A model generated the notes under the pieces. The model saw nothing but the letters and a program-made list of their open reading frames with translations, was not told the DNA's origin and did no database searches. The translations under genes and the position numbers were made by a program. From Providencia huaxiensis (GTDB lineage: Bacteria; Pseudomonadota; Gammaproteobacteria; Enterobacterales; Enterobacteriaceae): a DNA stretch of 64,000 bases. Below, one piece after another: positions 29,553 through 63,976 of the stretch (the first letter of the stretch is position 1; every line of letters starts with the position of its first letter). The stretch covers positions 3,224,001 through 3,288,000 of the forward strand of contig NZ_CP031123.2 of NCBI RefSeq assembly GCF_002843235.3, given 5' to 3'.

Positions 29553-30104
29553 TCAGTAATAATCCATTTTAAAACGGATAGTTGTCTGATAATTTCCTGG
29601 TTTTAAGCGTTTATTATTAGGTACTACCCGCACCTTATAGTGCAGAGTTGTCTCCCCCGCGCTAATAGGTAAATCAGGCATTGCCTTACCAGGTATTGCA
29701 ACATTTCCAGCCATATCAGAAATTTTTACTGACAATCCATTTGCATGCCCAAAAACATCGAAGTTACGGCCATCAGTTGGGCCATCAAATGTAATATTGA
29801 AAGTTTGCCAATTAGGGGTTCCAGGAGTTACCGGTGTTAGAACACAATTGATAAGGCGTATAGAGAAATCACTTGTTGGACTTTCTCTGTCGTGAATTAT
29901 CTGGCTAACCGGTACAGTCGTTATGCTAACTGATTGATCTCGGCTATCTGCATCTATTGCACAAGGGCTCTCAATGATTGAACCGCCCATAGTAACAGTT
30001 CCTTTGAACTGACTTTGTGCCCGAGAATTTTGATTTTGCGCACTGACTATCGGGGCAAATATCATTCCTGAAAGCACCATGACAATGATGCCAAAGTGAT
30101 TCAT
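29553..30104 (-). CDS. mrpB: Minor fimbrial subunit, MrpB-like
   Basis: 183 residues with signal peptide (IIVMVLSGMIFAPIVSAQ), pilin cysteines in IIESPCAIDADSR and RLINCVLTP, and C-terminal TIRFKMDYY. Located between the major pilin and usher as mrpB is in Proteus, where it is thought to end fimbrial growth. GGAG lies five bases before the ATG. The strand before the first cysteine (QFKGTVTMGGSI) is the chaperone-complementing donor region. Confidence 0.87.
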   Translation of the reverse strand: MNHFGIIVMVLSGMIFAPIVSAQNQNSRAQSQFKGTVTMGGSIIESPCAIDADSRDQSVSITTVPVSQIIHDRESPTSDFSIRLINCVLTPVTPGTPNWQTFNITFDGPTDGRNFDVFGHANGLSVKISDMAGNVAIPGKAMPDLPISAGETTLHYKVRVVPNNKRLKPGNYQTTIRFKMDYY

Positions 30105-30153
30105 AGCGACTCCATCTCAACTTAATAACCAATTTCAATGCATTAAAATTAGT

Positions 30154-30175
30154 GCCCATACATCCTTGTACGGGC
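30154..30175 (-). terminator. Intercistronic stem-loop after the major pilin gene
   Basis: GCCCATAC (30154-30161) pairs with GTACGGGC (30168-30175), eight pairs with one wobble and a six-base loop, nine bases after the last pairable end of mrpA. Such hairpins after major pilin genes attenuate transcription or stabilise the pilin mRNA, giving more pilin than usher. No T-run is present. Confidence 0.5.
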
Positions 30176-30183
30176 TATACCAA

Positions 30184-30714
30184 TTACTGGTAGCTCAGAG
30201 CAAATGTTGCAATTGCATCAAATTCACCTGGTACAGCTGGTTTGTTTGTTGCATCATCATCGCCTTGCAAATAAGCTTGGAAACGCAATGTGTTCGCACC
30301 AGTTAATAAAGTTTGAGATGGTGATTTAGCACCTAAAGCAATTTTGGTGCCGTTGAAATCAGTGATCACGATACCCGCGTTTTTCGCAGTACCAGCAATA
30401 GCTAAACCATCAGTTACCGAAGTACTTGGAATACCAGTAAATGTAGTTTGAACTGTTTTCAGAGTTGTGATGTCGCACTGCTCTAATTGAATATTGAAGT
30501 CACGAGCAATACTTTTACCGCCACCGTTTAATGCAGATGTTGCGATAGCACCCATTGGTACTTCAAATGCTTGAGATCCTGGTGGAATTGAGCAAGGAGC
30601 ATCAATAATTGAACCTTTAAAAGTGACTTGGCCGCCACCTTGGTTTGCAGAAGCAGAACCAGCAACTACTGCTAAACCTAAACCTAATACTAAAGCAAGT
30701 TTATTTAATTTCAT
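30184..30714 (-). CDS. mrpA: Major fimbrial subunit, MrpA-like
   Basis: Structural pilin of an MR/P-type fimbria. The mature N-terminal region has the donor strand and first cysteine (GQVTFKGSIIDAPCSIPPGS). The second cysteine is in NIQLEQCDITT, and the C-terminus is ATFALSYQ. The start at 30714 gives MKLNKLALVLGLGLAVVAGS, almost the Proteus MrpA signal peptide; the frame continues upstream to 30747 but those residues have no signal-peptide logic. 176 residues. First gene of the ten-gene operon. Confidence 0.92.
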   Translation of the reverse strand: MKLNKLALVLGLGLAVVAGSASANQGGGQVTFKGSIIDAPCSIPPGSQAFEVPMGAIATSALNGGGKSIARDFNIQLEQCDITTLKTVQTTFTGIPSTSVTDGLAIAGTAKNAGIVITDFNGTKIALGAKSPSQTLLTGANTLRFQAYLQGDDDATNKPAVPGEFDAIATFALSYQ

Positions 30715-30747
30715 TTTATACATTTCCATTAGATAAAAAGACAACAC

Positions 30748-31850
30748 AAATTAAAATAATGAGTTATTATTAATCTGATTATTTCAACTTTTTCTTAAAA
30801 TATATTCGATTAGCAAATATTAAAGATTGACACCAATAACTATTTCTATTTATCAAACTCTATTAGTTAATAAATGAAATAATTAAACAATGCATCAATG
30901 CGTTGCCATTATTATACCACATTTTAGTTATGTCAAATTTAAGGGTTAATTAAACATCTTAACTATAAGTTAGTGATATATATATATAATTCATAACATG
31001 CCCCATCTTAAATACACCATTACGGGATAAGTTGGTGATGTGCTTCTAATTAAATTGACCTTTTCTTAATAAAAAACCATAAAATAAACCCAATCATTAT
31101 TAATAAAGTTTTTTATACTCATAAAACGGGTTCTTATTAGTGAAAAAAAATGGGATGAGATAAAGTGAAATCATGAAATTAACTCAAAAATATTAAATCG
31201 AGATTTTACCGAAAAATAATTAATCAGAAACTTCCCAAAAAAAACAATTAAATATTTTCATAATGTTTCTAAACTCACCAATTGTTACATTTTAAATGAG
31301 TAATAAATTAAAAATAAATCCATAAATATCATCATGATAGATTAAAAACAACCATGAATTCAATATAAACAACACCTAGGTACCATTAATATAATAAAAC
31401 ACTTTTTAAATAAAAATAAAAATAGAAATAATTGATAGAAAATAAAATGAAAAACGATAGCCAGACAGCCTTAATATTTCAAATTATTTCAAAAAGTAAT
31501 TAAAAGTAACTTTCAATAACTTTATAAATACCACCAGAAGGATTAAAATAGAAAAACAAGACACCTTTAATAGAAATAAACCAATCTCTATTTAAGTTGA
31601 TTAGCTAAATTAAGGTAAGTTAAATAGCAAAAATGAGGATATCCCAAAAATGAGTAAAAGTAATGCCATAAATTATTGTCGACAATTACATTACTGACCT
31701 AATAATAATATCTCAAATATAGAAACCGCTGTTTAAGTCAAAACACCATAAAGACTGAGCATAACTTACCATTATATTTAACATTACCTACACCCAAATT
31801 AGAGTATGTTTATATGGCGATACAAAGTAAATCACCACTTAAAACAAAAA
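30748..31850. other. 1.1-kb very AT-rich region upstream of the fimbrial operon
   Basis: No gene is supported. In Proteus mirabilis this place holds the recombinase gene mrpI and an invertible promoter; I see neither a recombinase frame nor a pair of long perfect inverted repeats. Long A-runs and T-runs suggest H-NS-type silencing. Apart from the mrpA promoter candidate and the nar terminator at the edge, I cannot assign anything. Confidence 0.5.
30911..30919 (-). promoter_or_regulatory. Candidate extended -10 promoter for the fimbrial operon
   Basis: On the minus strand the bases read TGGTATAAT, a perfect extended -10. TTGACA lies 14 bp upstream (30936-30931), closer than the usual 17, so the extended -10 may carry the promoter. 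This gives a leader of about 190 bases before the mrpA start. Confidence 0.4.
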
Positions 31851-31874
31851 ACCCCATCTCATATGAAATGGGGT
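31851..31874 (-). terminator. Rho-independent terminator of the nar operon
   Basis: ACCCCAT (31851-31857) pairs with ATGGGGT (31868-31874) around a loop that itself contains TCATATGA. On the minus strand it is followed by TTTTTGTTTT. It lies 84 bases after the narI stop, a textbook intrinsic terminator. Confidence 0.85.
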
Positions 31875-31957
31875 GCCAAAATAGCAATATTTGTTGTTTA
31901 CACAAGAACAAGTTGTACAAAAGCAATGTACTGGCCCACCGCCTTGTGGAGCCAAAC

Positions 31958-32635
31958 CTAATGGCGATTTCTCACCAATTGATACCGACGAGTCAGGTAT
32001 TCGATAGGGGCACTCCAAATGTGCACTAAACGGCAGAATGGGAAGAGTAAAAATATCGTCATACCCAACACAATATGCAGTTTAAAAACGATGCCAACAC
32101 CTTCAAGGTAATTGGATGCCCCCCAATGGAATGTCACAATAGACTGCGCCCATCCCACTAATTTTAGCATTTCGCTGCCATCCATATGTTGCGCTGAGAA
32201 TGGAATGGTAAGTAACCCTAAGCAAACTTGCACCACCAGCAAGGTTAAAATCATAATGTCACCGAAGGATGAAGTTGCTCTCACGCGAGGGTTCGTCAGG
32301 CGGCGCTTCAACAGCATCGCGCCACCAATTAACATCATCACACCTGCTGCCCCCCCACCAATCATCGCCATTAATTGCTTAATATGCATTGGCAGAAAAG
32401 ATTCATACATCCAATGAGGCGTTAACATACCTAAAAAGTGCCCGACAAAAATCCCAATAATCCCCAAATGGAATAAGTTTGATGCCAAACGCATGTTCTT
32501 TTTATCTAACATTTGGCTGGAACCCGCTCGCCACGTGTATTGCCCGTAATCGTAACGTAACCAACTACCGACAATAAATACCGTCCCAGCGATATAGGGG
32601 TATATATCGAAGAAAAATTGATTGATAAAATTCAT
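31958..32635 (-). CDS. narI: Nitrate reductase A, gamma subunit (cytochrome b)
   Basis: Membrane diheme b subunit that oxidises quinol and passes electrons to NarH. 225 residues with five membrane helices. Haem-ligating histidines are recognisable in [16 protein letters not shown] (two, about 56 and 66) and in [23 protein letters not shown] (two, about 187 and 205). Last gene of the operon; its ATG overlaps the narJ stop by four bases. Confidence 0.96.
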
Positions 32636-53163: not shown

Positions 53164-53573
53164 GTCATTTTTACCAACCAAAGTACTTAAATCGCACAAG
53201 GTAGTTATTATGAGCTCACCTTGTGCTTTTTTAAACTTTACCCCTCATTTAAGCTCACTAAAGTATGCCAATATTGTTCTATCAAATATAAACTTTTATC
53301 GTGTAACTTATTTATGTCAGGGACTGAACTCTCTTTATAAGCGTATTTTTATGATCCGCATCCTAATTGTTTCTGAATTATTTATTACATTTATTTTCAA
53401 ATTAACATTATTAAAAAATCCTTATAAATAATTAATCCATACTACTCATTCACAATTGCGCATTAAATTTAAAGGAATAATTAACAAACATGTAAGATAA
53501 AAGGTCAGCATTAAGAAAATGTATAATTAATCCTTTAACTTTATCTCCCGCCTTATATTGGCGGGAGCATTAT
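53164..53573 (-). terminator. Intergenic stretch with terminator at 53545-53567
   Basis: Most of this 410-bp region is AT-rich with nothing recognisable; a 73-codon frame at 53210-53431 has no coding character. At its end CTCCCGCC (53545-53552) pairs with GGCGGGAG (53560-53567) around TTATATT. It lies a few bases past the stop of the minus-strand chaperone gene. The following bases ATAAAGTT give only a weak T-run, but the stem is strong. Confidence 0.6.
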
Positions 53574-54248
53574 TTAGAAAAACAGCTTGGTCATTGTACG
53601 CTGTACTTGTAATTCTCTTGCTAACATATTTACTACTATATGTGTAATCTCCCCAGCCAATCGATACACTGGAGTTTTTGTATTTTGATAAACTAATTGG
53701 CAAAAACGTTCTTCCCAAGTAAGAAGATGTTCATATAAAACAATACGAGTTGCATGTTTATAATACTCCTTATCTTCACCCTTTAAATTTGGGTCCATTA
53801 TTTTTTGCCATAGTGTCGCTAATACTGACAGCATTAACCCTATATGGTCTTGCGGTTGTTTTTCATCAAGTATATATCGTAATTTATGCTCTTCTAAAAA
53901 AGCTATCCACTGATAAGTTGATGAGCGAAATAATAAATTTTCTTCATCTAGATAGACAGAGCCCCATGGTGGAGCTAGAGGCATTCCAATACCAACAAAT
54001 AATGATAAATGGTCTGCCTGTAATTTATCTAAAACATTTTCATCAGATAAATAGTTTTCTAATACACTACAATCATTACCTAATTTTTCTTGCCAATATA
54101 ATAAAATACCACTTGAACAGACTTCTTTTAAAAGTATAGCATTTGGCTCGAAAAAAAATAATTGGTATAACAACTTCAATGTAACAACAGTTTCTGATGG
54201 TTCAAGTTGTAATTGAGTATCTGTAATAATACTTTGGTCATTTCTCAT
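53574..54248 (-). CDS. TorD/DmsD-family molybdoenzyme chaperone
   Basis: 224 residues from the ATG at 54248, six bases after GAGG. The family signature is visible: LFVGIGMPLAPPWGSVYLDEENLLF (about 88-112) and EKQPQDHIGLMLSVLATLW (about 135-153), the twin-arginine peptide-binding region. Last gene of the Dms-like operon, 31 bp after the catalytic subunit, and therefore probably the dedicated maturation factor for it. Diverged from the second DmsD at the right edge. Confidence 0.88.
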   Translation of the reverse strand: MRNDQSIITDTQLQLEPSETVVTLKLLYQLFFFEPNAILLKEVCSSGILLYWQEKLGNDCSVLENYLSDENVLDKLQADHLSLFVGIGMPLAPPWGSVYLDEENLLFRSSTYQWIAFLEEHKLRYILDEKQPQDHIGLMLSVLATLWQKIMDPNLKGEDKEYYKHATRIVLYEHLLTWEERFCQLVYQNTKTPVYRLAGEITHIVVNMLARELQVQRTMTKLFF

Positions 54249-54279
54249 CACTTGCCTCTTTCCCCATAAACTACAGCAA

Positions 54280-56703
54280 CTATATAGCTTTAACTTCTAC
54301 CAAATTGGTGCCTTGTGGGTTGGCTTTAGCCAATGCAGTAGGTCTTAAGCGAGTAATAGTATTAATGCATCCGCCTATATCGATACCATTAGAATCCGGC
54401 TTATACCATGCTCCTTCAGCCAAAGCGACAACACCTGGCATAATACGAGGTGTGATTTTAATCGGTATCTGGATAGTTCCCCGATCATTGTAAACGTGAA
54501 TAAGTTGTCCTTGCTCCAAGCGACGCTCACTGGCATCAATAGGATTAATCAACAATGCATCTTCAATGACTTCTCGCAGCCAAGGGACATTATAGAATGT
54601 AGAATGTGGACGCCCTTTTGATTTAAATCCTATTAGCTGTAGTGGATATCGTTTCTTCGTATCTATATCCGTGTAGCTTTCCCATGTTTGTATATATTGC
54701 GGTAAAGGAGTAACTTTGTCCCCTTCATCTAATTGCCAAGTATTCGCGATTTTAGCTAGCTTATGGCTATATATCTGAATTTTTCCTGATTCCGTTGATA
54801 ATGCATTTTCTTTAGGATTTAATCTGAATGCTTTCAATACATAGCGATCTTCTTCAGGATCGAAAGGTCTACGTATTGTTTTCTTTTGTGACAATTCCTG
54901 ATAACTAGGAAAATTAGGATGTTTAACCCGGCTTTCTTCATATAAATGACGTTGCCAATCATCCCATGTTCTACCTTCTCTATATTGCTCTCCTATGCCA
55001 AACTTTTCTGCTAAATCTGAAAACACATCATAAGGGTGGCGACACTCATATAATGGATCCAATACATGTTCTGTTTTTGTTATATGTGTAGAAAATGCAA
55101 CAACGCGTGAATTTTCTAGCCATGTGATATCAGGCAGTAAGATATCTGCAAACTTGGCACTTGCAGTCATATGATTATCCATGACAAAAATAAACTCAAG
55201 CAGCTCTTCATTGGCTAATATTTTAGCCATTGCATTACAGTCAGAATGTTGATTTAATAGCCAATTACCTTGATACATAAACACACATTTTACATCTGTG
55301 TTAAGCTTATCTTCACCTTCAATACCGTCACTTAATGATGTCATTTCGTGACCTCGTAGGATCGCTTCCGACCATTTAAAACAAGGTATTTTTGCTTTGA
55401 CGGGGTTCTTGCCTGTAGGCATCTTAGCAATATCAGTTTTATGAAATAAAAAATCTGAGCCGCCATTATTCGTTCCAGGCAAACCAATTTTTCCAAGTAA
55501 AATTGGTAACATAAATATGGCCCGGGCTGTTTGCTCACCAGCTGCATGACGTTGAGGCCCCCAACCTTGAGCGATAAATGGAGCTTTAGCATTACCTAAT
55601 TCACGCGCTAGCTTATATATTTGCTCGCTAGGAACACCGCAAATATGAGCCGCATATTCAGGTCTTTTTTCTATTCCATCTTCACCCTGCCCTAAAATAT
55701 ACGCTTTATAACTAAGTGATGCGTCTAAAGCGGGTAGCCCATGCTCTGGTATCGCAGGCTCTGCATCATAACCGTAGCAATATTCCTTTAAGAAAGCTTC
55801 ATCAACAAATTTTTCGGTAATCAAAACCCATGACAACGCTTCGACTAATAAAGCATCTGTTCCTGGGCGAATTGGAATCCATTGGTCTTCCCGCCCACAA
55901 GCTGTATCAGTATATTGAGGGTCAATAATAATAGTCCGAGCAGAACTTTTCGCTTTGCTAACTTGATAATGATAAGTATCACTACCTCCGCTCATTCTAG
56001 TATTAGCGGGGTTATTACCAAAATAAACAATGAGGTCTGAACGAGCTAATTCTGTTGGAGCACTCCCCATTGTGTAAGACTTATCCCCATAGGTATAAGT
56101 TGAGGCAGTATCAATTTGGTGGCTACTATAATTACCAACAGGTGATAGAAAACCACCAATCATATTAAGGAAGCGAGGAACAAAATGATAGGGTCCATCA
56201 GGTTTACCATAGCCTATACGGCTAAATATAGCCTGATTACCATATTGGCTAATAATTTTACTCAGCCTAGTATATATTTCTTCTAATGCTTCATCCCAAC
56301 TAATTCTTTTAAACTCACCATCTCCTCGTTTGCCAACTCTTTTCATTGGATATTTCAAGCGATCTGGTGAAAATGTACGTTTATGTAGCGAACGCCCACG
56401 TAAACATGCTCGAACTTGATGCTGTCCGAATTGATCATTACCTATATCATCAGTTTCAATTCGCTTTATCTGATTATTTTCTGTAACAATCTTTAGTAAA
56501 CAACTGGAATGACAATGTGCCCAGCAGTTATGCCATTTTGTTACTTCTCCAATATGAGTTTCTATTACTGCTGATGCTATTGCATTCATAGAATGAGTAG
56601 ATAAAAAAGCACCTGAACCTAAAAATGTTCCCAGCTTTATAAAATGGCGTCGAGAAAGCGTATAACGTTCTTTTTCAAATTGGTCTTTTGTATCTTTAAG
56701 CAT
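54280..56703 (-). CDS. DmsA/YnfE-like molybdopterin oxidoreductase, catalytic subunit
   Basis: 807-residue Tat-exported molybdoenzyme. Tat signal SRRHFIKLGTFLGSGAF (about 18-34). The 4Fe-4S cysteines are in HNCWAHCHSSCLLKI, the fourth in RACLRGRSLHKRTF. DmsA hallmarks include VYFGNNPANTRMSGG, IDPQYTDTACGREDQWIPIR, QGWGPQRHAAGEQ and FKSKGRPHSTFYNVPWL. It reduces an S- or N-oxide, probably DMSO-like, but it is coded next to a TtrS-like sensor. It is far shorter than TtrA (about 1000 residues), so it is not tetrathionate reductase by length and motif. Order here is B-C-A-D rather than E. coli A-B-C. Confidence 0.92.
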   Translation of the reverse strand: MLKDTKDQFEKERYTLSRRHFIKLGTFLGSGAFLSTHSMNAIASAVIETHIGEVTKWHNCWAHCHSSCLLKIVTENNQIKRIETDDIGNDQFGQHQVRACLRGRSLHKRTFSPDRLKYPMKRVGKRGDGEFKRISWDEALEEIYTRLSKIISQYGNQAIFSRIGYGKPDGPYHFVPRFLNMIGGFLSPVGNYSSHQIDTASTYTYGDKSYTMGSAPTELARSDLIVYFGNNPANTRMSGGSDTYHYQVSKAKSSARTIIIDPQYTDTACGREDQWIPIRPGTDALLVEALSWVLITEKFVDEAFLKEYCYGYDAEPAIPEHGLPALDASLSYKAYILGQGEDGIEKRPEYAAHICGVPSEQIYKLARELGNAKAPFIAQGWGPQRHAAGEQTARAIFMLPILLGKIGLPGTNNGGSDFLFHKTDIAKMPTGKNPVKAKIPCFKWSEAILRGHEMTSLSDGIEGEDKLNTDVKCVFMYQGNWLLNQHSDCNAMAKILANEELLEFIFVMDNHMTASAKFADILLPDITWLENSRVVAFSTHITKTEHVLDPLYECRHPYDVFSDLAEKFGIGEQYREGRTWDDWQRHLYEESRVKHPNFPSYQELSQKKTIRRPFDPEEDRYVLKAFRLNPKENALSTESGKIQIYSHKLAKIANTWQLDEGDKVTPLPQYIQTWESYTDIDTKKRYPLQLIGFKSKGRPHSTFYNVPWLREVIEDALLINPIDASERRLEQGQLIHVYNDRGTIQIPIKITPRIMPGVVALAEGAWYKPDSNGIDIGGCINTITRLRPTALAKANPQGTNLVEVKAI

Positions 56704-56731
56704 AATGATATCTCTATTTTTAATAAGAATT

Positions 56732-57559
56732 CTAGAGGTGATTAAATGTAATTAACTCATAAAATACGGCACGGCCTAATAACTCCGCACTGAAGACTAA
56801 AAGCGTGACAAGTATTAAAGAGACTGTTTTAATCTGTACAGCACTTCTGATTATCCAAGTAAAAGCACATACAATCAGCATCATTTTGATGAACAAAAAC
56901 AATTTAATCCATTGAGGTAAAATTATATTTTCTATAACTAACTGGGTAAAAAAATGCATTAAATATCCAGTATTAACTGCCATACTTATAATAAAAATAA
57001 CACTCCACAGTTTGTTAAAAAATTTCCGACTATCTTCTTGATTAGTGACTATTTTAATGATCAGTGCAATCAGTAGTGAACCTGAAATAAAACCACTAGA
57101 TATAAAGTTTATTAACGTCCATTCCGAATTCCATAAATAAACAGTATCCAAATAGTAAACATTTGAAATGGCAATGATTTGTGCAAATGCAAAAATAGTA
57201 GCAATAACATTGATAATTATTTTTATCACATTATTTATATTAAGCCTTTCAAGAAATATCAGAGAAAATAACATGGCACCAAAAATAGATATCGTTATAA
57301 TTTCTATTGACATAGCTGATAAATGGGTTAAACCGAGTAACACATTTGGAGCCCGTAAAGGAGTACCTAAATGAGTTAATGCCACGGCCCCTGATATTCC
57401 AAGTAAAATAAGTAATATAATGAAAATATTAGTAAGCTGCTTTTTATTTATCAGAAATTGATAGCTGACTGAAATGACTCGCAAGTACTGCAAGAATATA
57501 AAACTAGCAGCGACTGCTTGAGCTAATACAGTAAAAAAAACTAAAGGAAATTCCTGCAT
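56732..57559 (-). CDS. DmsC-like membrane anchor subunit
   Basis: 275-residue quinol-oxidising anchor with eight predicted helices; the start EFPLVFFTVLAQAVAASFIF matches DmsC (EWPLMIFTVFGQCVAGGFI in E. coli), as do ALTHLGTPLRAPNVLLGLTH near 60 and AELLGRAVFYELITF at the end. The frame runs from a GTG at 57568, but the ATG at 57559 lies two bases after the dmsB-like stop and behind GAG. Very rich in Ile and AT-ending codons. Confidence 0.88.
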   Translation of the reverse strand: MQEFPLVFFTVLAQAVAASFIFLQYLRVISVSYQFLINKKQLTNIFIILLILLGISGAVALTHLGTPLRAPNVLLGLTHLSAMSIEIITISIFGAMLFSLIFLERLNINNVIKIIINVIATIFAFAQIIAISNVYYLDTVYLWNSEWTLINFISSGFISGSLLIALIIKIVTNQEDSRKFFNKLWSVIFIISMAVNTGYLMHFFTQLVIENIILPQWIKLFLFIKMMLIVCAFTWIIRSAVQIKTVSLILVTLLVFSAELLGRAVFYELITFNHL

Positions 57560-57561
57560 AG

Positions 57562-58188
57562 TTACCACTCCGCCTTATTAATGATAAAGCCTTGCTGACT
57601 ATGAGTAGGCTTAGCATGACGATTATGTCGAATAATTAAAGATGGTTGAGTCAGATTGGAATCTGGTAGGGGAGCGATATTAGCCGTTTCACCATATTTA
57701 GTTCGAAGGAAATCCATTGGCCCAAAATCAAGAGCCCGTAAAGGACAAGATGCAACACAAATTGGCGCTTTATTCTGAGCTATTAACTCAAAGCATCCAT
57801 CACACTTTGTCATATGTTTTTTTTCAGGGTTATACTGCGGCGCTCCATATGGGCAAGCCATTTCACAGTAGCGGCAACCTACGCAAATTTTTTCATCAAC
57901 AACAACTAAGCCATCATGCTCACGCTTATGCATTGCTCCTGTAGGGCAAGCTTTTGTACAAGCAGGATTACTGCAGTGATTACAACTAATCGAAACATAA
58001 TAGGCAAATACATTTTGTTGCCATGTATCATCACTAGTTTGTTTAGTCCATTCACCACCTGTGTATTCATATACACGGCGGAAATTAACGCCGATTGGTA
58101 ATTCGTTTTTATCTTTGCAAGAAACCTGACAAGTTTTACAGCCAGTACATTTACTCGTATCAACAAAAAAACCATACTGTTGTGCCAT
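57562..58188 (-). CDS. DmsB-like iron-sulfur subunit
   Basis: Ferredoxin subunit with four 4Fe-4S sites. The start at 58188 gives AQQYGFFVDTSKCTGCKTCQ, the DmsB N-terminus; 36 residues upstream in the longer frame are unrelated. Cysteine groups: CTGCKTCQVSC, CNHCSNPACTKACPTGA, CVGCRYCEMACPYG, and CDGCFELIAQNKAPICVASC. 208 residues. First gene of the operon, transferring electrons from the DmsC-like anchor to the catalytic subunit. AGG precedes the start. Confidence 0.92.
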   Translation of the reverse strand: MAQQYGFFVDTSKCTGCKTCQVSCKDKNELPIGVNFRRVYEYTGGEWTKQTSDDTWQQNVFAYYVSISCNHCSNPACTKACPTGAMHKREHDGLVVVDEKICVGCRYCEMACPYGAPQYNPEKKHMTKCDGCFELIAQNKAPICVASCPLRALDFGPMDFLRTKYGETANIAPLPDSNLTQPSLIIRHNRHAKPTHSQQGFIINKAEW

Positions 58189-58260
58189 AACCATATACCT
58201 ATATAGTATTAAATCCTTATAAGTATATTTACGATTTTTTGGCCATTTTTCTATTAGGGG

Positions 58261-58281
58261 TACCCACATAAAACATGGGTA
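58261..58281. promoter_or_regulatory. Inverted repeat upstream of the Dms-like operon
   Basis: TACCCA (58261-58266) and TGGGTA (58276-58281) bracket nine AT-rich bases, 73-93 bp upstream of the dmsB-like start in the 255-bp gap after the response regulator gene. A reasonable place for response-regulator binding; no consensus is known to me for this branch. Confidence 0.35.
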
Positions 58282-58443
58282 TATAATGTGGTTCACTGTT
58301 TTTGAATTCAGCGATTACTGCTAAATTTTATAATTAATAGAACATCAAAAACAACATCATAACCAATTGAAATATATTCATATTTATCAAATTAGATACG
58401 CTAACCAAGAACTATCTAATCAATAAGCGTCAATAATACGGTT

Positions 58444-59094
58444 TTATTTTTTTCGCCGAATTCTCATTGGAGGAGGAGGAATAGTTGCTATAAATGGCTC
58501 AATCTGAATGTAAATTTTAATCATTTCCGCCAATGTAGTTACATCCAAGTGACGTAGTGTACTCGCTTTATGAACTTCTACAGTCCGTGGTGATATGTGA
58601 AGAATATTTGACACTTCTAGATTATTTTTCCCATTCGCAAGCAAGGCTAAAATATCACGTTCACGTTGCGTAAGTTTTTGATATTTTTCAATATAATTTT
58701 TTTGATATATTTGTTTTTTACTATAAGACAACGCGGCTTCTACCGCACTAAGCAATGACTCCCTATAGATAGGTTTCTGTAAAAAGTCTACGGCACCGAG
58801 TTTAAGCGCATCAACTGCCATAGGGACATCACCATGCCCAGTAATAAAAATTATACCTAAAGTTTTATGATTCTGTTGAAGGATAACTTGTAGTTCTTGC
58901 CCACTCATTCCTGGCATTCGGCTATCAAGAACCAGGCATCCTTGCAATACACCTGATTGTTTTTGAATAAAGTCCAAAAATGCTTCTGCTGATGAGAAAC
59001 ATAATGGCTCATACCCTTCACCTTGTAGCATAAATTCCAAGGCGTCTAATACGGACTCATCATCATCAACTACAAATAAAAATGATTTTTTCAT
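58444..59094 (-). CDS. TtrR-like (FixJ family) response regulator
   Basis: 216 residues. Receiver: FLFVVDDDESVLDALEFML, phospho-Asp57 in CLVLDSRMPGMSG, FITGHGDVPMAVDALKLGAV, LQKPIYRESL. LuxR-type DNA-binding domain: LTQRERDILALLANGKNN, ISPRTVEVHKASTLRHL (about 160-185). C-terminal tail PPPPMRIRRKK. Fits TtrR and other FixJ-group regulators. It lies 53 bp after the TtrS-like sensor and directly upstream of the Dms-like operon on the same strand. Confidence 0.9.
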   Translation of the reverse strand: MKKSFLFVVDDDESVLDALEFMLQGEGYEPLCFSSAEAFLDFIQKQSGVLQGCLVLDSRMPGMSGQELQVILQQNHKTLGIIFITGHGDVPMAVDALKLGAVDFLQKPIYRESLLSAVEAALSYSKKQIYQKNYIEKYQKLTQRERDILALLANGKNNLEVSNILHISPRTVEVHKASTLRHLDVTTLAEMIKIYIQIEPFIATIPPPPMRIRRKK

Positions 59095-59147
59095 CCCAAA
59101 ATCCTCTGGAGCTCCCGAACATTAAGACGGGGTACAGTCAATATATT

Positions 59148-60911
59148 TTATTTAACTTTAGCTATAGGGATACGAGCTACAGCTCGGCAGCCTCCGGTTG
59201 ATAAATTTATCAATTCAAACTCACCGAAATGGGACTCCATGACTTCTTTACAAATCACCAACCCTAAACCAATACCATCTTGCTTCGTTGTCACAAATGG
59301 AGTTAACAACTTTTCAAAAGGCATTGATAAACCTGTACCCTGATCGTAAACCGATACTTCAACTTTATCATTTGTTTTCGTTAAGGTAATGGTGACTTGT
59401 TCACGATTATTTTGAAATGTAGCATCAATTGCATTTGTCAACAAATTCACAAGCAATTGTTCAATTGCTGCTTTATCCCCAAAGATAAAAACTGCATCAC
59501 TAGCTGACTTCCAATGTAAGTGAACGTGCTTTTGATCTGCATATATTTTAACTAAATCTATTGTTCCACCGATTAATGCATTTATATCTATATACTTTTT
59601 TTCTATTGCTTTCTTTTGAAGTAATGAACGAAAACGGCGCACAACCTCATCGACTCGATTAACCTGTCGATGGATTTTATCTAAGGGTACAGTGATATCT
59701 GTATCTAATTTGCCTTGATTCCTTCGTGAAATTTCACTTTCAGCATAGAGGCGAATTGCAGCTAGAGGCTGATTCAATTCATGTGCCAAGCCTGAACCTA
59801 ATTTATCAACTAATGCGTGACGTTGAACCTTATGCAAACTTTCTTGAGCATGTCTCAGTTTGAGATAATTCTTTCGGTAACGAAGAGACAAAAAGAAATA
59901 TTGAATAGGAAGAATTGCAAACAGTAATAGACCAGCAATGGTAGCGTAGTAATTATTAATTAACCAATTCCAAGTTTGATACCACCATTTTTCTTGTAGT
60001 GGATGCACCCCTAAGTCAGTAAATAACCGATCTAACTCAATTTGACTTTCAGGAACACTCCATCCCAGAGATTGGGCACTTTTTGCAGCAGAAGAATCTG
60101 ACGGAATATCGAATAAAGCAACAACGACTTGCTTAGCCAATAAACGGTCTGCCGCATTAGTCATAGCAAAACTCCAATTAGGATATAAATGAGTAGATAC
60201 TTTACAATGCGCGTCAGATTTATTTCGTTGACCAAGTATACGTAATTGATTTGGCTTTAATTCACCTTTTAAAATCATAGATTCAATCAAACAAACAGGT
60301 AAGATCGCCCCCTCTATTTGCCCACTAACCAATGCATCCACAACATGTTCATGAGGGTAGCCAATCTCAACCAGATGAGAAAAATATCCCTTTAGCTTCC
60401 TTTCATGAATGACATCATGAGCAAATGCCATAAACCCGCCAAAAGCTTGTTTACTCGCAGTCCCAATCGAATGCCCCGATAACTCTTCAATTGAAGATAT
60501 AACACTTTCTTCTTTCACCCAAACCGCGGACCCTGTTGAATATTTTGTTCCGCTATCCATAGGGCTAATCAAAGTTGCTAACCAAGAGAGTGATGATTTT
60601 CGACCAATACGGATACTTTCAGAGGGATTAACGATAATAAAAGGTAAACGTTGCCGTAAAATTTCTTCTTGTAACTGTTCTAGTAATAAAGGCTGTAGAG
60701 TGAAGTGATATTCTGGGAGACGCTCATTTAGCCAATCTATAGTCTTTTGCCAACGATTACTCGCCTCTTCTACCCCCCTATCAGCAAAAACACCAACTGT
60801 GATTACTTCTTTGGGTACTGAGGTTGGCTTTGATATTGCCAATGGGTTTAATAAAAAAAATAATAAGTTACATAAGCAAAGACTTATGAGTATTCTTTTA
60901 AGTATATACAT
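59148..60911 (-). CDS. TtrS-like sensor kinase with PhnD-type periplasmic domain
   Basis: 587 residues. Signal/anchor at 1-25, then a periplasmic-binding-like domain of the PhnD/SBP type (about 35-300: ITVGVFADRGVEEAS, LPFIIVNPSESIRIGR, SIGTASKQAFGGFMAFA, VSGQIEGAILPVCLIE), a membrane helix (about 328-347), a short coiled coil, a HisKA domain with GSGLAHELNQPLAAIRLYAE, and HATPase motifs LLTNAIDATF, YDQGTGLSM, GIGLGLVICK. This architecture is that of Salmonella TtrS, which senses tetrathionate. Here the adjacent enzyme is Dms-like, so the ligand may differ. Confidence 0.9.
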   Translation of the reverse strand: MYILKRILISLCLCNLLFFLLNPLAISKPTSVPKEVITVGVFADRGVEEASNRWQKTIDWLNERLPEYHFTLQPLLLEQLQEEILRQRLPFIIVNPSESIRIGRKSSLSWLATLISPMDSGTKYSTGSAVWVKEESVISSIEELSGHSIGTASKQAFGGFMAFAHDVIHERKLKGYFSHLVEIGYPHEHVVDALVSGQIEGAILPVCLIESMILKGELKPNQLRILGQRNKSDAHCKVSTHLYPNWSFAMTNAADRLLAKQVVVALFDIPSDSSAAKSAQSLGWSVPESQIELDRLFTDLGVHPLQEKWWYQTWNWLINNYYATIAGLLLFAILPIQYFFLSLRYRKNYLKLRHAQESLHKVQRHALVDKLGSGLAHELNQPLAAIRLYAESEISRRNQGKLDTDITVPLDKIHRQVNRVDEVVRRFRSLLQKKAIEKKYIDINALIGGTIDLVKIYADQKHVHLHWKSASDAVFIFGDKAAIEQLLVNLLTNAIDATFQNNREQVTITLTKTNDKVEVSVYDQGTGLSMPFEKLLTPFVTTKQDGIGLGLVICKEVMESHFGEFELINLSTGGCRAVARIPIAKVK

Positions 60912-61755
60912 AATAAGGAACCGTAATATTAAGTTCTAAGTACATAAAAAAATTGTTTAAGAATTTAAAAATTAAATTCACACTCTTCACCCATTGAAAA
61001 CGTACTGTGTTCAATTTTATCTTTCGCAAAGAAAAACATGCTATTGTTTATTATTCTTCTATGATTCAACAGATAGAGCAAATATTTTTCATCAAATAAC
61101 CACATATCGACATACTCAGAGGGATTTGTCATTCTTCAAACCAAAACTCTTGATGTAACGAGCTGACGTAGACTTTTGTAGACAAGATTGATAAAAACCT
61201 AGCATAGATTCTTCTATGATTCGCTACTTGAGAGAGTAATGAAACCTCTAAATTTACCCATTATAATAAGAAAAGGAAAATACCCATAAAAATGCTAATA
61301 ATCCTATTGAGTGCTGGCTTGAAACTAGTACCTTAGTATTAACGACCATTGTCGAACACTGTCTTATTTTTCGTAAAAAAATAGTTTTTTAATTAACAAT
61401 TAATTTTTAACTTTTGTTCATTTTCATTATAAATAAAGCCTAAAGTTTAAATGATAAAATTTAATTTCATGATTTCCTTGTGAGATTAGCTAGCAAGTTC
61501 AAACAAGCATTTAATTTACAACAAATAAAAAACACTCAATTTCTTAAATTCATTTTGATAATTTAAGAAATAAAGAAACTCATCATAAATGCCATCTAAT
61601 CATTTTACTCAGACAATAATATTTCAGCCACAAAAAATATTAAATAACACATATATTTCATATGGTTAAATTAAAACAATTTCTTCGGATTATTTATTTC
61701 CCGACCATTGATAGGCAAATCTTATTTCAGCAATTGCTTAAACCGATGGCCATCA
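60912..61755. other. AT-rich intergenic region with a 15-bp direct repeat
   Basis: About 845 bp between the divergent ttrS-like and yhjA-like genes, with no gene I can support. ATTCTTCTATGATTC occurs at 61053-61067 and again at 61208-61222, 155 bp apart. The second copy is part of CATAG-attctt-CTATG. Both lie upstream of the sensor gene. Long A/T runs suggest bent DNA. Confidence 0.5.
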
Positions 61756-61769
61756 TTGATAAAAATCAA
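61756..61769 (+). promoter_or_regulatory. Perfect Fnr box upstream of the yhjA-like peroxidase gene
   Basis: TTGATAAAAATCAA is an exact match to TTGATnnnnATCAA. With its centre at -41.5, transcription would start near 61804; CATCAT at 61792-61797 is a fair -10. The ATG is 67 bases downstream. E. coli yhjA is likewise Fnr-dependent. Confidence 0.8.
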
Positions 61770-63343: not shown

Positions 63344-63976
63344 TTATAACGTATCTTTGTAAAACACCACTTTCTCTAATACAGGCAATGTTAACTGTTG
63401 TTGATATCCATCCAATGTTTCTTTGGCCAGTATCGCCAATGCGCAGTAAAAATCGCTGTTAGCCGAATCTATCAATACTTCGAGAAAATGTGCCGACCAA
63501 GGTAATAGATGCCAAGCGAGTAACTCTTCTAAATCAGCTCTGCGATTTTGCTCAGCGAGCCAAGCCGCTAACATCAAAATCAGCCCAAAGTGGTCTTCTG
63601 GCTCTTTTTGTGTTGTCACTGGCTCAACACCTTTAGTACGCATCCATTGGCGCAGCTCAACGGTTGAGTCACCAAAAACAATCTTTTCTTTATCTAACCA
63701 GACTGAGCCCCAAGGAGGCGCGGGTAAAGCATAAGGCCCGATAAACAAGCGCTGCCATGCTTCACTGAGGGGTTCATTCTCCTGAGCACTGGATTGTAAA
63801 AGCTGGCTAATTTTTGCTAAAGAAGGTAAGGAAAATGGCCATTCTTCATGCCAAGTTGGCTCTTGTAAAATCGAAATAATCTCTGCGTTGTTTTCATTTT
63901 CTGGTGAGAAATAAAATAAAGACCCCAGAACTCGCCCTGTGACTGCGACGTGCTCAAGAAAGTGCGCTTCTTGCAT
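63344..63976 (-). CDS. dmsD: Tat proofreading chaperone DmsD
   Basis: 210 residues, close to E. coli DmsD: VAVTGRVLGSLFYFSPEN at the start, AWQRLFIGPYALPAPPWGSV (about 74-93), SVWLDKEKIVFGDSTVELRQ, EPEDHFGLILMLAAWLAEQN and LLAWHLLPWSAHFLEV. It binds the twin-arginine leader of DmsA-type enzymes. It ends at a shared terminator, so it is the last gene of a minus-strand operon; the remaining dms or ynf genes should lie beyond the right edge. Ribosome site is weak (AGAG about 10 bases upstream). Confidence 0.92.
   Translation of the reverse strand: MQEAHFLEHVAVTGRVLGSLFYFSPENENNAEIISILQEPTWHEEWPFSLPSLAKISQLLQSSAQENEPLSEAWQRLFIGPYALPAPPWGSVWLDKEKIVFGDSTVELRQWMRTKGVEPVTTQKEPEDHFGLILMLAAWLAEQNRRADLEELLAWHLLPWSAHFLEVLIDSANSDFYCALAILAKETLDGYQQQLTLPVLEKVVFYKDTL

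Follow-up and report, generated by a model that had tools for sequence, protein, structure and literature searches.

A conserved six-gene module joining a TtrS/ThsS-like sensor pair to a DmsA-like reductase in Providencia huaxiensis

The 64,000-nucleotide stretch of Providencia huaxiensis DNA analysed here (the window; C6:3224001-3288000, contig NZ_CP031123.2 of a 4.8 Mb genome) carries on its minus strand, at window positions 53574-60911, a six-gene operon for a sensor histidine kinase (HK), a response regulator (RR), DmsB-, DmsC- and DmsA-type reductase subunits (B, C and A) and a TorD/DmsD-family protein (D). The six genes recur, in a handful of marine and gut bacteria and on certain E. coli plasmids, as a conserved module, the sensors of which form a clade of their own, and a regulator-type site keeps its position upstream of B. 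We consider it probable that the operon forms a self-contained respiratory unit, moves horizontally and has its own sensor pair to control B-C-A-D; the sequences are best read as a third branch of respiratory regulators beside TtrSR and ThsSR, coupled to a dimethyl sulfoxide (DMSO)/selenate-type enzyme.

In the model we propose, the periplasmic PhnD-type domain of a membrane sensor kinase would bind a small ligand, the kinase would phosphorylate the FixJ-like regulator, and the regulator would activate B-C-A-D by binding immediately ahead of B to a TATGTGG-N4-CC site. These genes are predicted to encode a molybdenum reductase of DMSO/selenate type, facing the periplasm and linked to quinol, together with its chaperone; the likeliest inducer is the substrate of that enzyme itself or a chemically close compound. 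Phosphotransfer, DNA binding, the identity of the inducer, reductase activity, location and electron donor are the elements of this model that we infer from sequence.

Recurrence and movement of the module

All six open reading frames lie where the first-pass annotation of the window had placed them on the minus strand, and domain and family profiles match the gene content it proposed. HK (59148-60911, 587 amino acids), assigned by Pfam and NCBIfam profiles and by alignment, joins a Phosphonate-bd domain (PF12974, 68.5 bits) of PhnD/PtxB type, at about residues 32-319, to HisKA, with H377, and HATPase domains; it has a hydrophobic N-terminal helix and a second helix that likely crosses the membrane. 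RR (58444-59094, 216 amino acids) is a FixJ/TtrR/ThsR-like regulator with Response_reg and GerE domains and a phospho-acceptor, D57, assigned by position. With PF12974 fused to HisKA and HATPase and a FixJ-like regulator adjacent, HK is a TtrS/ThsS-type sensor in the broad sense, and both proteins score under the equivalog cut-offs for TtrS (NF040750, 325.5 bits, cut-off 750) and TtrR (NF040749, 177.7 bits, cut-off 290). B (57562-58188, 208 amino acids) passes TIGR02951 (DmsB; 267.8 bits, cut-off 214.1). Its longer reading frame reaches 58296, and its start is most likely ATG 58188 and not GTG 58296, because the GTG start would overlap a conserved DNA site. The membrane anchor C (56732-57568, 278 amino acids) passes PF04976 (DmsC; 85 against a cut-off of 22.3). 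The predicted maturation chaperone D (53574-54251, 225 amino acids) passes PF02613 (93 against 22.2) and scores 90.4 with the DmsD equivalog NF008632, under the cut-off of 162.

A survey of TtrS-like/DmsA-like neighbourhoods, which the first-pass annotation had suggested, recovered HK-RR-B-C-A-D in four other genomes (Photobacterium damselae, Vibrio sinensis, Shewanella halifaxensis and Shimwellia blattae) along with two rearranged forms; the order in P. profundum is B-C-A-D-HK-RR. Sensor identity to HK, from a scan of genome contigs, is 65% in P. damselae, 60% in V. sinensis and 38% in P. profundum. We take the linkage of HK-RR to Dms-like genes to be more than chance, since hosts unrelated to one another share all six genes. 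Over seven loci the identities of HK and A correlate (Spearman 0.94), as do those of HK and RR (0.89) and of C and A (0.96); D correlates less (0.54-0.67 with HK, RR, C and A; 0.43 with B), and all these values are descriptive because locus pairs are not independent. Conserved synteny, correlated divergence and a common upstream site together bear out the earlier proposal that a TtrSR-like pair is tied to Dms-like genes. Ten flanking proteins, examined across the loci of P. damselae, V. sinensis, S. halifaxensis and S. blattae, give no hint of a shared function. Next after the module in V. sinensis (L026:17372-20948) come a separate PhnD-type protein and a large kinase-like one.

The large genome surveys scored the best few candidates per genome, so that, the Providencia survey excepted, their counts are lower bounds. 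Sensor relatives (E <= 1e-80) occur in at least 54 of 394 genomes of the order, and, the window aside, the module was found at none of the 58 places with fetched surroundings in that survey, which held ttr, phs or no recognised reductase instead. Within the same family at least 8 of 392 genomes match, two with the module and six with ttr. Matches were found in at least one of 129 genomes of the S. halifaxensis genus (E <= 1e-140, with the S. halifaxensis module sensor as query), in at least three of 329 genomes of the family of Vibrio and Photobacterium (E <= 1e-130), and in at least one of 369 genomes of a class sample (E <= 1e-245), this being the window itself. The other 23 of 24 Providencia species contain no match to A above 49% identity.

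The sensors of the module group together in a tree of 83 kinases (42 in ttr context, 18 phs, seven dms, seven with no recognised reductase and nine of unknown context), which was built by a quick method with a midpoint root and Shimodaira-Hasegawa-like approximate likelihood ratio test support only, from the loci and nine of 120 listed homologues. All seven dms-context sensors and five unknowns form one 12-row clade (support 100), and a second clade (support 100) unites 18/18 phs sensors with four lacking a recognised reductase. The ttr-context sensors are not monophyletic, and two sequences, the TtrS of this genome and a third S. halifaxensis kinase, have long branches and an uncertain placement. 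S. halifaxensis has three PhnD-type kinases, at 477 kb in the module, at 3,817 kb beside phs, and at 2,483 kb (L139), the last with a regulator and no reductase recognised within the fetched stretch. The phs-linked sensor is taken as ThsS because the published ThsR repeat occurs twice, without mismatch, at its locus. The 477-kb module sensor was considered for the same role and rejected, as it has its own B-C-A-D and its catalytic histidine is His377, against the published 372.

Several observations point to horizontal movement. In seven Providencia relatives the right-flank stretch around ccp matches at 81-94%, and the left yghU flank matches (85-89%) in two of the seven and has no match in the fetched stretches of the other five. 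Between the flanks, window positions of about 53228-61704 find no match in the seven save weak dms paralogy (67-72%), and in one relative ABC transporter and acyltransferase genes occupy the operon's place. The operon has a guanine-cytosine (GC) content of 36.2%, against 41.1% for the window; separately, GC falls locally to 31% at 30001-32000. Plasmids also carry the genes. HK-RR at 99% or more to a Proteus plasmid copy is present in 33 of 72,556 plasmid records (29 Escherichia, 3 Proteus and 1 Cronobacter), B-C-A-D in 35 records (in 34 of these over at least 80% of its length), and HK-RR in 36 of 5,426 complete E. coli genomes, on plasmids in 33 and on chromosomes in three. In one of the 35 B-C-A-D records A seems to be split into two annotated genes. 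The plasmid sensor shares 56% identity with HK, and in the five regions viewed among the 33 HK-RR records the order is cadR, HK, RR, IS1 and then D-A-C-B in the opposite orientation, an arrangement that looks like an inversion at IS1. An ettA-like ABC-F gene stands beside D in four of the five regions, and ars genes are close by in one. The module's occurrence on plasmids of E. coli prompts one to ask which electron acceptor makes it worth carrying there.

The site upstream of B and the catalytic subunit

The predicted operator TATGTGGGTACCCCTAATAGAAA (window 58248-58270, minus strand) has a core that starts 81 base pairs (bp) upstream of the likely B start, and its left half and spacing match the ThsR operator TATGTGGTTTACCACAAT as published in PMC5408782. 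A FixJ/ThsR-like site precedes B in all seven module loci and begins 78-89 bp before the B start codon, taken at each locus as the ATG preceding a conserved YGF. The relaxed core ATGTGG-N4-CC-N3-AT is exact in six of these promoters; the seventh departs from it by one mismatch. In the plasmid copy, where IS1 lies between HK-RR and the inverted B-C-A-D, the site stays upstream of B. The ATGTGGNNNNCCNNNATAG core has two exact matches in the genome, one upstream of B here and one upstream of ttrB, where about 0.6 would be expected by simple base counting; sites with up to one mismatch are at chance level genome-wide (13 including the exact ones, and 13 in a reversed control). A strict search for TGTGG-N4-CCACA upstream of the first reductase gene gave exact sites in 18/18 phs loci and sites with at most one mismatch in 36/42 ttr loci. 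Five of the seven module promoters have a non-palindromic right half, with the left half and spacing retained.

Catalytic subunit A (54280-56703, minus strand, 807 amino acids) has a leader of twin-arginine translocation type (SRRHFIK) and passes the DmsA/YnfE subfamily model TIGR02166 (1000.1 bits, cut-off 777.7). It stays under the exception-level cut-offs of E. coli-type DmsA (837.9/1600), YnfE (833.3/1675) and YnfF (793.1/1650). Identity is 75-82% to the module orthologues, 68% to P. profundum and 77% to the plasmid copy; against E. coli it is 48.2% to DmsA, 46.6% to YnfE and 44% to YnfF, and it drops to 22-24% for TtrA and Phs-type A subunits. In a tree that took 32 of 120 listed homologues, A falls in a 25-row clade (100/100) separate from DmsA and YnfE/F, with 18 of the 25 rows lacking a known context; L057, a duplicate of L058, was omitted from both this and the sensor tree. 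By these comparisons A belongs to a distinct subfamily and is neither TtrA, as the first-pass annotation had already held, nor the plain DmsA orthologue whose finding would have told against that annotation. Unusually long DmsA-like proteins (about 990-1220 amino acids, several from E. coli) occur among the A homologues. Ser193 of A (NYSS) aligns with the DYSS serine of E. coli DmsA, which we take to bind molybdenum, and with the serines of YnfE, YnfF and TorA; TtrA/Phs-type rows have no serine in this column and, in what is a low-identity alignment, a cysteine six columns later, a candidate molybdenum ligand that may not be equivalent to Ser193. A review places DmsABC in a group with an aspartate ligand (PMC7759655).

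The genome also contains a complete ttr locus (ttrR, ttrS, ttrB, ttrC and ttrA), with TtrS at C6:818672-820294 and TtrA at 822388-825456, the latter scoring 2050 bits against a cut-off of 1750; HK is 33% identical to this TtrS. The possibility that HK-RR serves that ttr operon, which the earlier reading had named as a danger to itself, was rejected, as the operon has its own TtrSR and its own upstream site. Five further DmsA-like genes in the genome are 39-48% identical to A, and two of them (the A gene of the canonical dmsABCD and L004) each have one in-frame TAA in the assembly. The canonical dmsABCD begins just beyond ccp (window 63344-63976 and C6:3289530-3291887).

Inducer and alternative readings

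Several points weigh against control of B-C-A-D by the sensor pair. The relaxed core was read off the same seven loci in which it was counted, and for that reason its 7/7 is not independent. Among the six distinct non-window module loci the strict palindrome is exact only at L027 and L140; L026 needs two mismatches, the match at L137 lies elsewhere in the upstream region, and at two mismatches or fewer none was found upstream in L025 and L058, a stringency at which 38 of 300 shuffled 410-mers also contain a site. The kinase tree is the product of a quick method. Finally, a one-mismatch FNR-like site (58377-58390, minus strand), some 200 bp ahead of B, makes general anaerobic control conceivable. 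This site speaks for a plain DmsABC under Fnr, with the two-component pair as a bystander controlling something else. A match as good arose in 10 of 400 shuffles, and we grade the site weak because none of the other six module promoters has one at one mismatch. Given also the constant linkage, the correlated divergence and the position of the predicted operator immediately before B, we regard this account as very improbable. A CRP site was sought in the same promoters, with a one-mismatch match in P. profundum only. Separately, a perfect FNR-type palindrome TTGATTTTTATCAA at 61756-61769 lies some 100 bp ahead of ccp (61871), the gene that it probably serves.

If the sensor pair does control B-C-A-D, the remaining alternatives concern its ligand. 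A sensor that has kept its relatives' response to thiosulfate or tetrathionate, beside a Dms-like enzyme acting on a sulfur oxyanion, would fit the common sensor family and the invariance of C207 and C236 (module 12/12, ttr 42/42, phs 18/18). Yet TtrSR-ttrBCA is already present in this genome, and ThsSR-phs accompanies the module in S. halifaxensis; sensor positions 44, 98, 187 and 250 vary between the module, ttr and phs groups, E98, H187 and M250 being assigned to the predicted ligand pocket of HK; and A stands far nearer to DmsA and YnfE/F than to TtrA or Phs-type subunits; the idea is improbable. Added acidic residues and the missing ttr lysine in the sensor suggest another ligand, and both sulfur or nitrogen oxides and small oxyanions are candidates. 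The substrate may likewise be a sulfur or nitrogen oxide, as the first-pass annotation proposed, or else, for instance, a selenium or arsenic oxyanion. A tetrahedral oxyanion (selenate, tellurate, arsenate, arsonate or similar), handled by a YnfE-like oxyanion reductase in respiration or detoxification, has in its favour an HK histidine that aligns with a ligand residue of AioX in 12/12 members of the clade and in 0/71 other sensors compared. However, the Ser-Asn-Ser of the AioX pocket aligns with Ala-Phe-Gly in HK, the PhnD-type fold is also used by ThsS and TtrS, A is about equally far from YnfE and DmsA, and the ten flanking proteins examined in the four chromosomal loci include no metal-resistance genes. 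We treat the oxyanion as a possible but doubtful ligand. Equally tentative is a broader proposal, in which the operon would be a transferable unit that lets its hosts respire an acceptor previously without a linked dedicated sensor. Through an AioX/ArrX/PtxB-type ligand histidine it would sense a tetrahedral oxyanion or a nitrogen or sulfur oxide met by livestock and marine bacteria, and E. coli plasmids would be spreading it.

Comparison with known systems

PMC5408782 counts 838 PhnD-type kinases of this sort. Among the open-licence papers listed, judged by titles and abstract openings, we found none describing a PhnD-type sensor tied to a DmsABC-type reductase. The nearest described system is ThsSR with phsAB-psrC of S. 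halifaxensis (Daeffler 2017, PMC5408782), which likewise has a PhnD-type sensor, a FixJ-like regulator and an adjoining molybdenum reductase, and the TATGTGG-N4-CC operator of which resembles the site predicted for the module. It differs in that the sensor taken as ThsS is 35% identical and lies in the separate phs-context clade, the reductase is of Phs/Psr type (A 24% identical), and the regulator gene is divergent; S. halifaxensis carries both systems. TtrSR-ttrBCA shares the sensor and regulator layout, the gene order B-C-A and the core of the upstream site, whereas TtrA is about 1040 amino acids long, the membrane subunit of the module is of DmsC type, and the ttr stretch of this genome, unlike the module, has no recognised TorD-type gene. 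The AioX/ArxX/ArrX arsenic systems also tie a PhnD-like sensor to an enzyme of the DMSO-reductase family, with a separate periplasmic binding protein where the module has one fused to the kinase (PMC5908839).

E. coli DmsABC and YnfEFGH-DmsD provide the A, B and C families and the TorD-type chaperone, in the order A-B-C where the module has B-C-A-D. The first-pass annotation had called the latter order unusual, which holds relative to E. coli dms and ynf; within the module it is constant, and B-C-A is that of ttrBCA. In E. coli, FNR and ModE control dmsA, DMSO does not induce it and only general regulators act on DmsABC (PMC12096835). Its natural substrate is for this reason questionable. A dedicated sensor on a DmsA-type enzyme would make the substrate findable through the response of the sensor, as for the thiosulfate sensor, and this sensor family could give a new biosensor.
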